This document shows positions 55,967 through 61,753 of a stretch of DNA of 64,000 nucleotides, piece by piece. Within the stretch, counting starts at the first letter, position 1. Each line of letters begins with the position of its first letter. Location of the stretch: the NCBI GenBank assembly GCA_018333525.1, contig JAGXTF010000089.1, positions 62,001 through 126,000 on the forward strand, given 5' to 3'. The position numbers and the translations under genes were made by a program. A model generated the notes under the pieces. The model had not been told where the DNA came from. It did not search any database and saw only the letters and a program-made list of their open reading frames with translations. This stretch comes from Bacteroidota bacterium (lineage in GTDB: Bacteria > Bacteroidota > Bacteroidia > NS11-12g > UBA955).

Positions 55967-56054
55967 ACCATAGCAGCGTTTTCAGGCAAGTAACCGCAAG
56001 CTAAAGATTTTGTGTGTATTACCCAAAAGCGGAAGGCAATTTGTTGAACTGTAT

Positions 56055-56062
56055 TATTTTTG
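56055..56062 (+). promoter_or_regulatory. -7 element of the split isobutyryl-CoA mutase operon
   Basis: TATTTTTG, exact match, seven bases before the ATG at 56070; it rejects the longer frame that starts at 56010. Confidence 0.55.
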
Positions 56063-56069
56063 CCGTAAC

Positions 56070-57491
56070 ATGAAGGATGTTCCTGTTTACCAGCCAAAGC
56101 ACAATGTTAGAATTGTTACCGCCGCATCATTATTTGATGGGCATGATGCCGCCATTAATGTAATGCGCAGAATCATTCAGAGTACTGGTTGTGAGGTAAT
56201 ACATCTGGGGCACGACCGCAGTGTGCAGGAAGTGGTACAAACCGCCGTTCAGGAAGACGCCAATGCCATTGCCATGACCAGTTATCAGGGAGGGCATATG
56301 GAATATTTTAAATACATGTACGACCTGTTGCAGGAAGCCGGAGCAGGGCACATCCGCATTTTTGCAGGAGGTGGAGGAGTAATTCTGCCTCATGAAATTG
56401 ATGAATTGCAGGCTTATGGTATTACCAGAATCTATAGCCCTGATGATGGTCGTGAACTCGGCCTGCAGGGAATGATTAATGATTTGGTTGAAAAAAGCGA
56501 TTTCCCTACCGGAGAAACCCTGAACCATGAGCCGGTTAAAATGATTGAAAAAGATTCCGTTGCTATTGCAAGGATTATTAGTGCAGCGGAGAATTTTCCG
56601 GAGAAGCATGTAACTGTGTTGCAAGAAATTCGGGAAAAAGCGAAAACTGCAAAAGTGCCCGTGCTGGGAATAACCGGCACCGGAGGAGCGGGGAAAAGCA
56701 GTTTGGTGGATGAATTGGTTCGCAGGTTCTTATTGGAATTTCCGGATAAAAAGCTCGGAATCATTTCCATTGACCCAAGCAAACGCAAAACAGGAGGAGC
56801 TTTGTTGGGGGATAGAATTCGAATGAACAGCATCAACAATTCCAGGGTATTTATGCGTTCACTGGCCACACGACAAGCGAATCTTGCAATGAGCCCGCAT
56901 GTAGATGATGCGATTGCAATTTTAAAAGTATCCGGATTTGATTTGGTGATTGTGGAGACTTCAGGAATAGGACAAAGCGATACAGAGATTACAGCACATT
57001 GCGATGTTTCATTGTATGTGATGACTCCGGAATATGGTGCGGCTTCGCAATTGGAAAAAATAGATATGCTGGATTTTGCAGATTTGGTAGCGTTGAATAA
57101 ATTCGATAAACGCGGCGCCTTGGATGCGCTTAGAGATGTTCAAAAACAATTTCAGAGGAACCACAAAATGTTCGATAAAAAACCGGAACAAATGCCAGTT
57201 TTTGGCACCATTGCAAGCCAGTTCAATGATCCCGGTATGAATCGTTTGTACACAGCAGTGATGAATACCATTGCAGAAAAAACCAACTCGGATTTGAAAA
57301 GTGATTTTCATGCAGGGGAAGAAATGAGTGAAAAAATTTATGTAATTCCACCAAATCGAACCAGATATTTGAGTGAAATTTCAGAAAATAACCGCCGTTA
57401 TGATGAGTGGGCTGCCAAGCAGAGCGAGGTAGCGCGTAAGCTTTACCAATTGGATGGTGCAGTAAAACAAATGGAAAATTTGGGAGAATAA
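56070..57491 (+). CDS. B12-binding plus MeaB-like G-protein subunit of an IcmF-type acyl-CoA mutase
   Basis: A 473-residue protein with an adenosylcobalamin-binding domain (residues 8-140: [13 protein letters not shown] with the DxH...G base-off motif, [20 protein letters not shown]) and then a G-protein domain of the MeaB family (P-loop [17 protein letters not shown] about residue 200; [40 protein letters not shown]). In fused IcmF these two domains are joined to the mutase domain. Here the polypeptide stops at 57491, and the mutase follows as a separate gene after 11 bp. The G protein protects and reloads the cofactor. Start at 56070 ([13 protein letters not shown]) fits the family. Confidence 0.9.
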
Positions 57492-57502
57492 TTGAATATA
57501 AA

Positions 57503-59482
57503 ATGTCGGTAAAAGAAAAAATATCCAATGCGGAAGTAATTTCAGAATTGAAAAATCAATTCGAAAAAATGAAACGCCAATTGGATGCGGAATGTTTGGA
57601 ACTAATAGAAAATTGGCATGCAAAAAAACAAAATTATGCAGGGGAATTTTTTACTTACCATGTTCGTGGAAAGGATATAAAAGTTGAGAACCATACAGAG
57701 AGTTTAAGTCATACCCAGATTACTAAAATCGGCTTACCACGCTATGAAAGCTGGGGAGATTTATTGCAATGGCAATTACAGGAAAATGTTCCCGGAGAAT
57801 TTCCATATACTGCCGGTATTTATCCTTTCAAAAGAGAAGGGGAAGACCCAACAAGAATGTTTGCCGGCGAAGGTGGACCTGAGCGGACCAACAAGCGTTT
57901 TCACTATGTAAGTTTGGGCATGCCTGCTAAGCGGCTTTCCACGGCATTCGACAGCGTTACGCTTTATGGCCGAGATCCGCATATTCGTCCGGATATTTAT
58001 GGGAAAATAGGTAATTCCGGAGTGAGCATTTGCTGTTTGGATGATGCCAAAAAATTATATAGCGGATTTAATTTGGCAGATTCAAAAACTTCCGTTTCCA
58101 TGACCATCAACGGGCCGGCACCAATGCTGCTTTCATTTTTTATGAATGCCGCCATTGACCAGCAATGTGAATTGTATATACACAAACATGGATTAGACAA
58201 AGAAATCAATCAAAAAATTGATAAAATTTTTGCAGATAAAAACCTTCCAAGACCAACCTATAATGGCGAATTGCCTGAGGGAAATGACGGACTGGGTTTG
58301 ATGTTGCTGGGAGTAACAGGAGATCAGGTTCTGCCTGCGGAAGTTTACCAGGAAATAAAAGATCATACATTAAGCCAGGTACGGGGTACTGTTCAGGCAG
58401 ATATTTTGAAGGAAGACCAGGCACAAAATACCTGTATTTTTTCTACAGAATTTGCATTGCGTTTGATGGGCGATGTACAACAATATTTTATTCAGAAAAA
58501 AGTTCGAAATTTTTATAGCGTTTCAATTAGTGGATATCACATAGCGGAAGCCGGCGCAAACCCGATTTCACAACTCGCTTTTACACTTTCAAACGGATTT
58601 ACATTTGTAGAATATTACCTGAGCAGGGGTATGCATATCAATGATTTTGCTCCAAATTTATCTTTCTTTTTTTCCAATGGTACAGATCCTGAATATGCGG
58701 TAATTGGACGGGTAGCAAGACGCATTTGGGCTAAAGCCATGAAGCACAAATACGGTGCAAATGCACGCTCTCAAATGTTGAAATATCACATACAAACCAG
58801 CGGTCGAAGTTTGCATGCACAGGAAATTGATTTTAATGATATTCGAACCACATTACAGGCATTATATGCAATTTATGACAACTGCAATAGCCTGCATACC
58901 AATGCGTATGATGAAGCAATCACAACCCCTACCGAAGAGAGTGTGCGCCGTGCAATGGCAATTCAATTAATTATCAATAGAGAATTGGGATTGGCCAAAA
59001 ATGAAAATCCAATTCAGGGATCTTTTATTATTGAAGAATTAACGGATTTGGTCGAAGAGGCAGTATTGGTGGAATTCGACAGAATAACGGAACGCGGAGG
59101 AGTTTTAGGTGCCATGGAAACCATGTACCAACGCAGTAAAATACAGGAAGAGAGTTTGTATTATGAGACTTTAAAACACAGTGGAGAATTGCCAATTATT
59201 GGAGTAAATACATTTCTAAGCAGCAAAGGATCTCCCACAAGTATTCCCCAGGAAGTAATTCGCGCAACAGAGGAAGAGAAACAATTTCAAATAAATATGC
59301 TCGCGAATTTGCACCAAAAAAATTCAGTAGAATGTGCAGAATCGTTAAAAAATCTACAAGCCGCTGCAATCCATAACGAGAATATGTTTGAAAAAATGAT
59401 GGAGGCCGGGAAATATTGTTCGCTTGGACAAATAACCGAGGCTTTGTTTCAGGTAGGTGGGCAGTATAGAAGGAATATGTGA
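57503..59482 (+). CDS. Mutase (catalytic) subunit of an IcmF-type acyl-CoA mutase
   Basis: A 659-residue TIM-barrel acyl-CoA mutase domain that rearranges isobutyryl-CoA and n-butyryl-CoA (or a related substrate) with adenosylcobalamin bound on the partner protein. Signatures: [85 protein letters not shown] and [24 protein letters not shown]. The FPYTAG...[14 protein letters not shown] form is that of IcmF, not methylmalonyl-CoA mutase. With the previous gene the total (1132 residues) equals a complete fused IcmF. The reading frame differs from the previous gene and is open back to 57440, so a sequencing or natural frameshift should be considered. Confidence 0.92.
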
Positions 59483-59490
59483 GGGGAGGA

Positions 59491-59640
59491 TTAGCGGGAT
59501 AGCAAGAAATAGCAAGAAATAGCAAGAAATAGCAAGAAATAGCAAGAATGGCAAGGGATAGCAAGGGATAGCAAGAAATAGCAGGGGAAAGCTAGGGAAG
59601 GCTGGGGATAATTGAATAGCAGTGGGGATAACTGAATAGC
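59491..59640. repeat. Degenerate 10-bp tandem array (left array)
   Basis: Directly behind the mutase stop, AGCAAGAAAT is repeated four times without change from 59511, preceded by one diverged unit and followed by diverged units (GCAAGGGATA twice, GCAAGAAATA, GCAGGGGAAA, GCTAGGGAAG), and then by two copies of a 20-bp unit GGGGATAAyTGAATAGC plus three bases (59604 and 59624). There are no spacers, so it is not CRISPR. The reading frames through it are low-complexity and not genes. Confidence 0.9.
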
Positions 59641-59742
59641 GAAGAGCTTCAGAAAAGTTGGGATTTGCAAGTGGAATTTTTCCTGCGAAAAATATCATTT
59701 TCGTTCATAATTAAGTAGATAATTATTAATAAGGAAATTTAT

Positions 59743-59775
59743 TTTATCCTAAAAGGATAAACTTAAAAGGATAAA
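59743..59775. repeat. Inverted and direct repeat with two TATCCTTTTA motifs
   Basis: TTTATCC-TAAAA-GGATAAA forms a 7-bp hairpin (59743-59761), and TAAAAGGATAAA occurs twice (59750-59761 and 59764-59775). Each copy contains the decamer TATCCTTTTA on the minus strand. It lies 5 bp beyond the stop codon of the four-helix-bundle gene. Confidence 0.75.
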
Positions 59776-59779
59776 AAAA

Positions 59780-60151
59780 TTATAGTTTATTATTCAAGGA
59801 TTTTTTGAGATTTGTGAGCATTCGCTGTATTTGATTTACCTCGGATATTATTTGCTTTATTTTTTCGGAATTTCCATAATTTAATCTTTGACAAATCAAT
59901 GCAAGTGTTTCGACTTCGGAGGCAGATCCTGATGAATAGAATAAAAAAAGTTTAAATTGTCCAATGGTTTTTCGCGAATGGCCTTCAGCAATATTTGCGA
60001 CAATGCTCACCGCCGCTCTGGTTTTTTGAGATATAATTCCATATTTTTCTTCCTTTGGTAAATCTGCACAAAACTCATAAATCAATACAACAAGGTCCAT
60101 GGATTTTTGCCACACCTTCAAATCTTTGAAATTCTCAATTCTTTTTTCCAT
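59780..60151 (-). CDS. Four-helix-bundle protein of the 23S rRNA intervening-sequence (S23/IVP) family
   Basis: A 123-residue helical protein with the family signatures FKDLKVWQKSMDLVVLIY, KYGIISQKTRAAVSIVANIAEG, and SSGSASEVETLALICQRL (the conserved ANIAEG and GSxxEVET blocks). Members were first found inside intervening sequences of 23S rRNA genes; others occur alone, and the fold is shared with Avd proteins of diversity-generating retroelements. The biochemical function is not known. The gene is orphan here, in no operon, flanked by two tandem arrays in opposite orientation. Start is the ATG at 60151; an in-frame TTG at 60163 is the alternative. A TAGTATTG near-consensus element lies nine bases before the ATG. 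Confidence 0.88.
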   Translation of the reverse strand: MEKRIENFKDLKVWQKSMDLVVLIYEFCADLPKEEKYGIISQKTRAAVSIVANIAEGHSRKTIGQFKLFLFYSSGSASEVETLALICQRLNYGNSEKIKQIISEVNQIQRMLTNLKKSLNNKL

Positions 60152-60204
60152 AATGAAATGCAATACTATATTATAAATATTTCGCAGTCGTTTTTAAACA
60201 TTTA

Positions 60205-60223
60205 TATCCGTTTAAATCGGATA
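60205..60223. repeat. Inverted repeat carrying TATCCGTTTA
   Basis: TATCCG-TTTAAAT-CGGATA, 6-bp arms, about 55 bp before the four-helix-bundle gene. The left arm and loop form TATCCGTTTA, the same decamer as at 61829. Confidence 0.6.
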
Positions 60224-60354
60224 ATGTATTACATTTTGAAATAGAATTTCTACTTCCAGCAATAGAATTCAACCTAAATTTAATCTGATTTATTTTATTA
60301 AAAGGCCCCAATGCATTTTACAAACCTTTACACCATCAATCCGAAATGCACATA

Positions 60355-60475
60355 TTATTCCTTGCTATTCTTGCTTGTCGCCTCCCTTACCATCCAAGCT
60401 ATTCTTGCTATCCTCGCTAACCAGCTATCCTTGCCATCCGTGCTAACCAGCTATCCTTGCTATTCTCGCTCACCC
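60355..60475. repeat. Degenerate 9-bp tandem array (right array), inverted relative to the left array
   Basis: Units such as TATTCTTGC, TATCCTCGC, TATCCTTGC, CATCCGTGC and TATTCTCGC, with two TAACCAGC units between them. These are the reverse complement of the left array theme (GCAAGAATA / GCAAGGGATA). The unit length is nine rather than ten. No open frame of note. The remaining part of the 60152-60622 spacer is AT-rich and holds the promoter at 60563-60591. Confidence 0.85.
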
Positions 60476-60622: not shown

Positions 60623-61753
60623 ATGAAAAAACATATCGGAATATCCTTAGTCGTATGTGTTGTATTTGCATTTCAATTTTCTTCCTGCAACAGCGGAGAA
60701 GCTGAAATTGATCTTGCAGACAGCACTGGAATGCCCGGTGATAATTTCAGTCTTGCCGGTGCATTAAATTTGCTCAAAGAATCAAATAATCTGGAAGAAT
60801 TCGAGAAAGGGCTGAATACAAAAAAAGGGGAAGTAAACAATTTAGACCTCAACGGTGACGGGAAAATTGATTATATCCGTGTTATTGACAATTTAAAAGA
60901 AAATTCACATGCTATTGTTTTGCAAATTCCTGTAAATAAGGATGAAGCCCAGGATGTTGCAATTATTTCCATCAAAAAAACAGGAGATAAAAAAGCATTC
61001 ATTCAAATCAAGGGAAATGAAATGTTGTATGGAGACAGTGCAGTACTGGCTCCTGAAAGCGGAGATGGCAAAATAGCTAACGCGTCCATGACACCGGAAA
61101 TTTTTAAATTTACAGCAGTGGATTTGTATGTGAACGTTTGGGGATGGCCTGTGGTGCCGGTGTTATACAGTCCTGCATATGTTGTATATGAATCACCCGT
61201 GGTACTTTGGAACGTTTATCCAACCTGGTATGAGCCGTGGCCTCCATATCCATATGGCTGGTACAGAAGAGAAGTGGCACACCGACATAAGAAATATTAT
61301 ACTCCGGTTTATTTTCTTGCCCCAACACCTGCTTTAGTAATGTATGGACCTACCATGCGCAACTCCGTATTTGTGGTCAACAGGTATCAGAGTATTTATG
61401 TGAAAAACGGTTGGCCTAAAGCCCGTGGTCGTGCTTATTACGGGCCTTCGGGTCCGGTATATATGCATGGTCCCGCACATATGGATCATGGAAATGGTGC
61501 ACCTATGAAAATGAAAGGTGGAGGCCCCGGTAAAGGGGCTCACGGAATGAAAGGAAGTCCGTCCGGAAGTGGTGGAATGAAAGTGGGCGCTCCAAATAGT
61601 GGAGGAAATAAAGGTGGCGGTCACAAAATGAATGCACCCGGTCCAAAAGGCGGTGGAGGTGCTCCGAAATCTAGCGGTGGTGGTGGCAAAGGTGGAGGAG
61701 GCAATTCCAAAGGCGGAAGTGGTGGTGGCCATGGTGGTGGAGGAAAAAAATAA
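60623..61753 (+). CDS. Lipoprotein with EF-hand-like loop, aromatic region and Gly-rich basic tail
   Basis: A 376-residue lipoprotein (lipobox QFSSC, Cys near residue 22). Residues 40-140 form a domain with an EF-hand-like calcium loop DLNGDGKIDYI. Residues 165-235 are very rich in Trp, Tyr and Pro (WGWPVVPVLYSPAYVVYESP; WYEPWPPYPYGWYRRE). From about residue 280 to the end the chain is glycine-, serine-, lysine- and histidine-rich and surely disordered. No family recognised. A soluble, sticky surface or matrix protein is likely. Preceded by a full promoter; followed by an AT-rich spacer with repeated TATCCNTTTA. Confidence 0.82.
   Translation: MKKHIGISLVVCVVFAFQFSSCNSGEAEIDLADSTGMPGDNFSLAGALNLLKESNNLEEFEKGLNTKKGEVNNLDLNGDGKIDYIRVIDNLKENSHAIVLQIPVNKDEAQDVAIISIKKTGDKKAFIQIKGNEMLYGDSAVLAPESGDGKIANASMTPEIFKFTAVDLYVNVWGWPVVPVLYSPAYVVYESPVVLWNVYPTWYEPWPPYPYGWYRREVAHRHKKYYTPVYFLAPTPALVMYGPTMRNSVFVVNRYQSIYVKNGWPKARGRAYYGPSGPVYMHGPAHMDHGNGAPMKMKGGGPGKGAHGMKGSPSGSGGMKVGAPNSGGNKGGGHKMNAPGPKGGGGAPKSSGGGGKGGGGNSKGGSGGGHGGGGKK

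Follow-up and report, generated by a model that had tools for sequence, protein, structure and literature searches.

In the 23S rRNA intervening sequence (IVS) of Coxiella, an S23 ORF lies in a stem-loop whose stem is cut by RNase III, and tandem heptamers (GACAGAT), the copy number of which varies between strains, are found just upstream of the ORF; the ORF itself has been reported as decaying and probably not expressed (PMC4990558). The cyanobacterial STRR heptanucleotide repeats and other heptamer arrays are known as well (TAACTGA; PMC4679880). In the open-access literature, the Coxiella heptamers were the only case found in which S23/IVP genes are linked to arrays beside them and, as far as could be searched, cassettes made of an S23 gene and inverted arms are undescribed as a class.

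The locus examined here lies in a window of 64 kb, i.e. the whole stretch of DNA that was analysed. A sequence-only reading had pointed to a 123-residue S23 gene standing between two arrays of 10-bp (left) and 9-bp (right) units, each the reverse complement of the other, the whole being placed between two ordinary operons, and the observation was confirmed (Table 1). Indeed, the only families matched by the gene are those of S23, both in Pfam (PF05635, E = 9.9e-35) and as TIGR02436 'four helix bundle protein' (E = 2.5e-32). The left array shows a period of 10 with 8.6 copies (ATAGCAAGAA) at 59499-59583, followed by degenerate units, and the right array a period of 9 with 7.6 copies or, alternatively, 26 bp repeated three times; these units of 9-10 bp are longer than the usual 7-8 bp. 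On the S23 sense strand, the upstream arm reads AGCAAGGATAGC... and counts 44 G vs 14 C, and the downstream arm, approximately the reverse complement of the upstream one, reads TTTCTTGCTAT... The best ungapped piece of this inverted match is 20 nt long at 90%, and the loose local score of one arm against the other reaches 51, compared to a maximum of 31 in 1,000 dinucleotide-model shuffles and to at most 28 at 1,921 random positions of the same geometry in the window. No second inverted array pair of this kind was found elsewhere in the 64 kb, nor any long array of this unit elsewhere in the same genome. When the 986-nt sense RNA of the cassette was folded, a check that the sequence-only reading had proposed, one long imperfect stem was predicted (MFE -259.5 kcal/mol, z = -6.65).

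Table 1. Features of the S23 locus in the window (positions in the window).
Feature	Position	Strand	Basis
S23/IVP gene (23S rRNA-intervening sequence protein, four helix bundle), 123 aa	59780..60151	-	PF05635, TIGR02436
Upstream arm (5' of S23 on the sense strand; right array), G-rich units, e.g. AGCAAGGAT / AGCTGGTT	60356..60474	-	Tandem repeats, composition
Downstream arm (left array), C/T-rich complementary units TTTCTTGCTA, degenerate to 59640	59499..59640	-	Repeats, arm comparison
Whole cassette; arms = stem, S23 ORF = loop	59495..60480	-	Predicted sense-RNA fold
Flanking mutase subunit gene	57503..59482	+	ORF; kept in 57/59 family genomes
Flanking lipoprotein-like gene, without Pfam or NCBIfam match	60623..61753	+	ORF, profile searches

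The first array unit stands 16 bp after the end of the mutase gene, presumably of the IcmF/methylmalonyl-CoA mutase type, and the S23 gene is antisense to both of its neighbours. Within the cassette there is no further long ORF except those overlapping S23 or the arrays and, in agreement with what had been noticed before, neither a transposase nor a reverse transcriptase is seen in the list of ORFs adjoining the gene. Gene order after the mutase differs in the relatives and the window insertion cannot be dated, because its junction is not conserved among them. The mutase of the window is made of two ORFs (493 and 659 aa, 56010-59482), and many relatives display a single frame of ~1,130-1,180 aa at the homologous place. 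In one other genome (L231, G006:C339), a period-7 array (GATTTCTGATTTCT...) follows right after the stop of the orthologous mutase, with no S23 within the 1.5 kb examined.

In its build, the window element resembles the long IVS class, since terminal inverted repeats forming a predicted stem are combined with an S23/IVP ORF. In Coxiella and Leptospira as well, the S23 ORF occupies the loop of a terminal inverted-repeat stem, and the total size is comparable (~0.4-0.5 kb). However, the window element is located between protein genes, outside the 23S rRNA gene, and for this reason it is not classed as an IVS although it is built like one. Furthermore, intergenic S23 elements differ from the IVS by having tandem arrays as both arms and many unlike copies per genome. 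The window cassette also differs from DDE or Y1 transposons, as it has no transposase gene and its arm units vary from locus to locus without any fixed terminal sequence. Avd of diversity-generating retroelements has a four-helix-bundle pentamer fold related to S23, but neither a reverse transcriptase nor a template/variable repeat pair was noticed among the ORFs around the window locus.

S23 genes are present in 41 of the 57 genomes sampled near the window, and no S23 match was found in phages. The genome of the window itself has six of them, and the four loci that were inspected by eye all display mirrored arms, each with a unit of its own: TAGCAAG(AAA) in the window, CACAAGCTTCAGG, AGTACCTAGTGCC and TGAAGGAA at the others. 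At the level of the order, 90 S23 loci of relatives were set against 327 control genes, drawn from 464 kb of three of the relatives' genomes and the window, using the inverted local score between the 400-bp flanks with strict cut-offs of at least 14 and at least 18. Inverted arms were observed in 58/90 S23 loci vs 3/327 controls at the lower cut-off and in 33/90 vs 0/327 at the higher one, the S23 loci coming from related genomes and being not fully independent. Tandem arrays occupy 107 of the 180 flanks of these loci. With one strict detector, period-7/8 arrays amount to 74-77 per 100 kb of S23 flank vs 5 in 800 kb sampled at random in S23-bearing genomes, i.e. a density ~120 times higher beside S23 genes; S23-free genomes show 1 such array in 384 kb vs these 5 in 800 kb, both being small counts. 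Hence the co-occurrence of arrays and S23 genes in relatives, which the sequence-only reading had suggested to look for, is observed at most of the loci. GTDB genomes were also scanned, which yielded 80 named S23 loci, 75 of them usable, and inverted arms were found in 37 of these 75. The armed loci include Clostridia, Muribaculaceae, Acidobacteriota, Planctomycetota, Gemmatimonadota, Poribacteria, Cyanobacteria and candidate-phylum genomes, as well as Beta-, Gamma-, Delta- and Alphaproteobacteria, and none of the seven conserved 23S rRNA motifs searched for occurs in any of the 80 named loci. At the thresholds used, ~40-50% of S23 loci are without arms.

Period 7 is the commonest in the arms (48 upstream and 54 downstream flanks), followed by period 8 (18 and 16 respectively). 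The unit differs by locus and the only constant is inverted complementarity; a universal heptad consensus is weak (an RG core), barely above column-permuted controls. Indeed, in 75 of 164 loci the upstream arm finds its best partner, out of 164, in the downstream arm of the same locus, the chance expectation being 1 in 164, and the G-rich strand lies upstream of S23 in 67 of 73 loci. Between S23 pairs of 50-60% identity, the own-arm score is 20.4 and the cross-arm score 8.8, which equals the background. Since own arms still match while those of different loci are unlike, the arms change quickly and jointly. In MFE structures the arms pair with each other in 69 of 77 cassettes. A sense-RNA wobble test between arms showed no excess of G:U over A:C (141 vs 170, p = 0.11), such as selection on the RNA stem should leave, so nothing favours RNA over DNA pairing, and it may be at the DNA level that arm pairing matters or simply arises.

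S23 proteins have no known catalytic activity and no assigned function. The window protein is basic, with a pI of 9.4 (family median 8.7), and its nearest solved structure is 2gsc (XCC0516, E = 4.5e-19), a toroidal pentamer (PMC4990558). In 12 of the 13 pairs for which it could be computed, dN/dS of S23 is 0.05-0.35; the protein is therefore maintained under purifying selection, in contrast with the Coxiella ORF. At one locus (L084:3827-4207, minus strand) the array extends into the S23 coding end and the repeat units give the protein a PQPQPQP tail. The same locus (G047:C15, 980-5240) displays several GGTTGAGGTTAAGG arrays around two tandem S23 copies of 93% identity and around further genes that by eye resemble RhuM and AlbA, hence arrays can bracket genes other than S23.

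At orthologous junctions, the cassette as a whole is either there or missing. One genome (L065) carries it between a thiolase gene and the gene that follows, where its relative (L076) has 55 bp; at L065 4160-4260, the 3' arm is bracketed by a direct duplication of 21 bp (AAAATGAAAATAACTCTCAA) that includes the start of the following gene and is not seen at the empty site. At the sdhB-sdhA junction of one genus, an S23 cassette is found in G021 and G012, and a related cassette whose arms differ in G061; in G068 both the S23 gene and the heptads are unlike these, and G028 has a solo array without S23, the empty sites being plain spacers of 15 bp in G074 and of 39-45 bp in G065, G057 and G032. 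A further junction (L075) is occupied in G044 and G047 and measures 64 bp in G050 and 73 bp, with another short array, in G042. In G044 (L077, 1935-2027) a remnant made of the first codons of S23 was also seen at a place where G047 has intact copies, which indicates that cassettes decay.

Cyanobacterial plasmids display the same alternation. Their heptads are TAGGGAG units between nrdB and nrdA, AGGTGAC/AGGGAAC between cas6 and cas4, and AGGGAAC after traM. Anabaena sp. 90 has cas6-S23-cas4 vs cas6-cas4 in Dolichospermum, with flanks 98.8% identical, and Nostoc C052 has traM-S23 vs no S23 in C057 (flanks 94.6% identical). At traM, the ATCC 53789 plasmid has both arms without the S23 gene, and no S23 cassette is present at nrdB-nrdA in Calothrix NIES-4105. 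S23 genes with heptad arms were observed within CRISPR operons of type I-D (cas6-S23-cas4) and type III-B (cmr2-S23-cmr3), at L395 (NC_019429.1, 1134-1911), L396 and L402 (NZ_CP016476.1), and they have the look of insertions rather than of Cas accessory genes. At the plasmid (traM, nrdB-nrdA) and sdhB-sdhA junctions the spacer is replaced, and no duplication of the target was noticed. Since one species can carry the cassette where a relative lacks it, the cassette looks like a small inserting DNA element; mobility is strongly suggested by these occupied and empty sites, and the presence/absence pattern could in part be due to loss. The earlier proposal of a small undescribed cassette with the arrays as its ends is thus supported, as arms accompany S23 across phyla and the cassette is found or missing as a whole; it needs correcting in that the arrays are no fixed end sequence, their unit varying by locus.

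Arrays also occur without S23. In G021, which has three S23 genes, the unit of one S23 cassette (L057) has dozens of further matches in the genome, some of them gene-less hairpins, and in the genome of the window the unit family of the second S23 locus (L002) has 154 pattern matches vs 0 for the reversed pattern, mostly short intergenic arrays without S23; the unit of the window has no such gene-less copies. In that same genome (G000), short RGCYNSM heptad arrays (AGCCACAAGCTTCAGGC and similar) are spread genome-wide, mostly in intergenic DNA (e.g. L335, L338, L339, L340). The S23-array association had been expected to break down if arrays were as frequent away from S23 genes, or if S23 genes in relatives consistently lacked them; neither is observed, even though in some genomes S23-less arrays exist in large numbers. 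RAYT belongs to the Y1 transposases, and REPs are palindromes of fixed sequence, the relation of REPINs and RAYT being reportedly treated by Bertels and Rainey in 2011. S23 cassettes share with REPIN/RAYT a single gene between inverted short repeats and, for the units of L057 and L002, gene-less repeat copies dispersed in the genome, but they are without transposase and their arms are variable heptad arrays instead of a fixed repeat. With the cyanobacterial STRR they share degenerate 7-bp tandem units in intergenic DNA, and such arrays serve as arms of the cyanobacterial plasmid S23 genes; in contrast, the STRR on record are direct arrays to which no gene is coupled, and S23 arms are paired, inverted and attached to a gene.

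The S23-less arrays may derive from cassettes, either as remnants or as forms that lack the gene; alternatively, it may be the arrays that come first. In the latter case, heptad arrays would be what moves or expands, as with REP/BIME or STRR, and S23 a passenger without any role in the spread, which settles or survives best in array hairpins. The numerous matches of the L057 and L002 units, the solo array at sdhB-sdhA and the S23-less arms at traM, where relatives carry S23, all speak for this possibility, which we nonetheless regard as doubtful: arrays are rare in random sequence, and their concentration at S23, inverted pairing and fixed polarity are not explained by a passenger role. Polymerase slippage at recombination-prone junctions, which S23 insertion and arrays would both mark while being functionally unconnected, is very unlikely. 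In many prokaryotes heptamers are indeed the most frequent of the long simple repeats, and slippage has been proposed for them, as stated in a passage of PMC4679880 citing Mrazek 2007, but slippage does not yield inverted, gene-polarised pairs whose complementarity is locus-specific and which accompany one protein family across many phyla.

The cassette could also act as an RNA element, the arm stem within an operon mRNA being cut by RNase III, as occurs in the Coxiella IVS, or bound by S23, so that expression of the neighbours is uncoupled. In 113 of 150 loci S23 runs in the same direction as the genes on both sides, vs 11 in which it is opposite, and the predicted pairing of the arms is in line with such a role. 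We consider it unlikely, in view of the negative wobble test and of the window and nrdB-nrdA copies, both antisense to their two neighbours. As for a chance association at the window locus alone, its unusual 9-10 bp unit is the only point in favour, and the probability is close to nil given the excess of arms over controls, their recurrence in the named loci, the own-arm matches and the score of the window against its shuffles.

We therefore favour the reading in which the window locus is one copy of a widespread kind of small intergenic insertion element, an IVS-like hairpin with S23, and consider it probable, its proposed origin and renewal included. In such an element, of ~0.45-1 kb, a single S23/IVP gene would be enclosed by two inverted arms, the tandem units of which are degenerate and for the most part 7-8 bp long, and because the arms are inverted the element can fold on itself with the S23 gene in the loop. 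We infer that it is the intergenic counterpart of the S23-bearing 23S rRNA IVS. It would reach new intergenic sites without evident target duplication, a short spacer being replaced, probably by using host replication or repair, and S23, possibly as the toroidal pentamer of its solved homologue, would bind the hairpin. Renewal of the arms would combine slippage of their units with template switching at the quasi-palindrome, by which one arm is copied onto the other, and S23-less arrays at cassette sites would be remnants or non-autonomous forms. Against mobility, it has to be noted that no mobility enzyme is encoded in the cassette.

More tentatively, and with somewhat less than even confidence, orphan S23/IVP genes as a whole may represent undescribed autonomous small mobile elements that span phyla, insert between genes and carry self-complementary heptad arms rewritten at each locus, and may be the source of rRNA intervening sequences as well as of many dispersed heptanucleotide (STRR-like) arrays. 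The link of S23 with paired heptad arms and with occupied and empty junctions also brings together two old puzzles, the rRNA intervening sequences and the cyanobacterial heptanucleotide repeats. For annotation, S23 genes that lie in operons of cas, nrd and tra genes should probably be taken as insertions and not as parts of these systems. PF05635/S23 proteins being widespread, the same link makes of the 'orphan four helix bundle protein' an element that can be tested, as it has ends and sites as well as derivatives without the gene.
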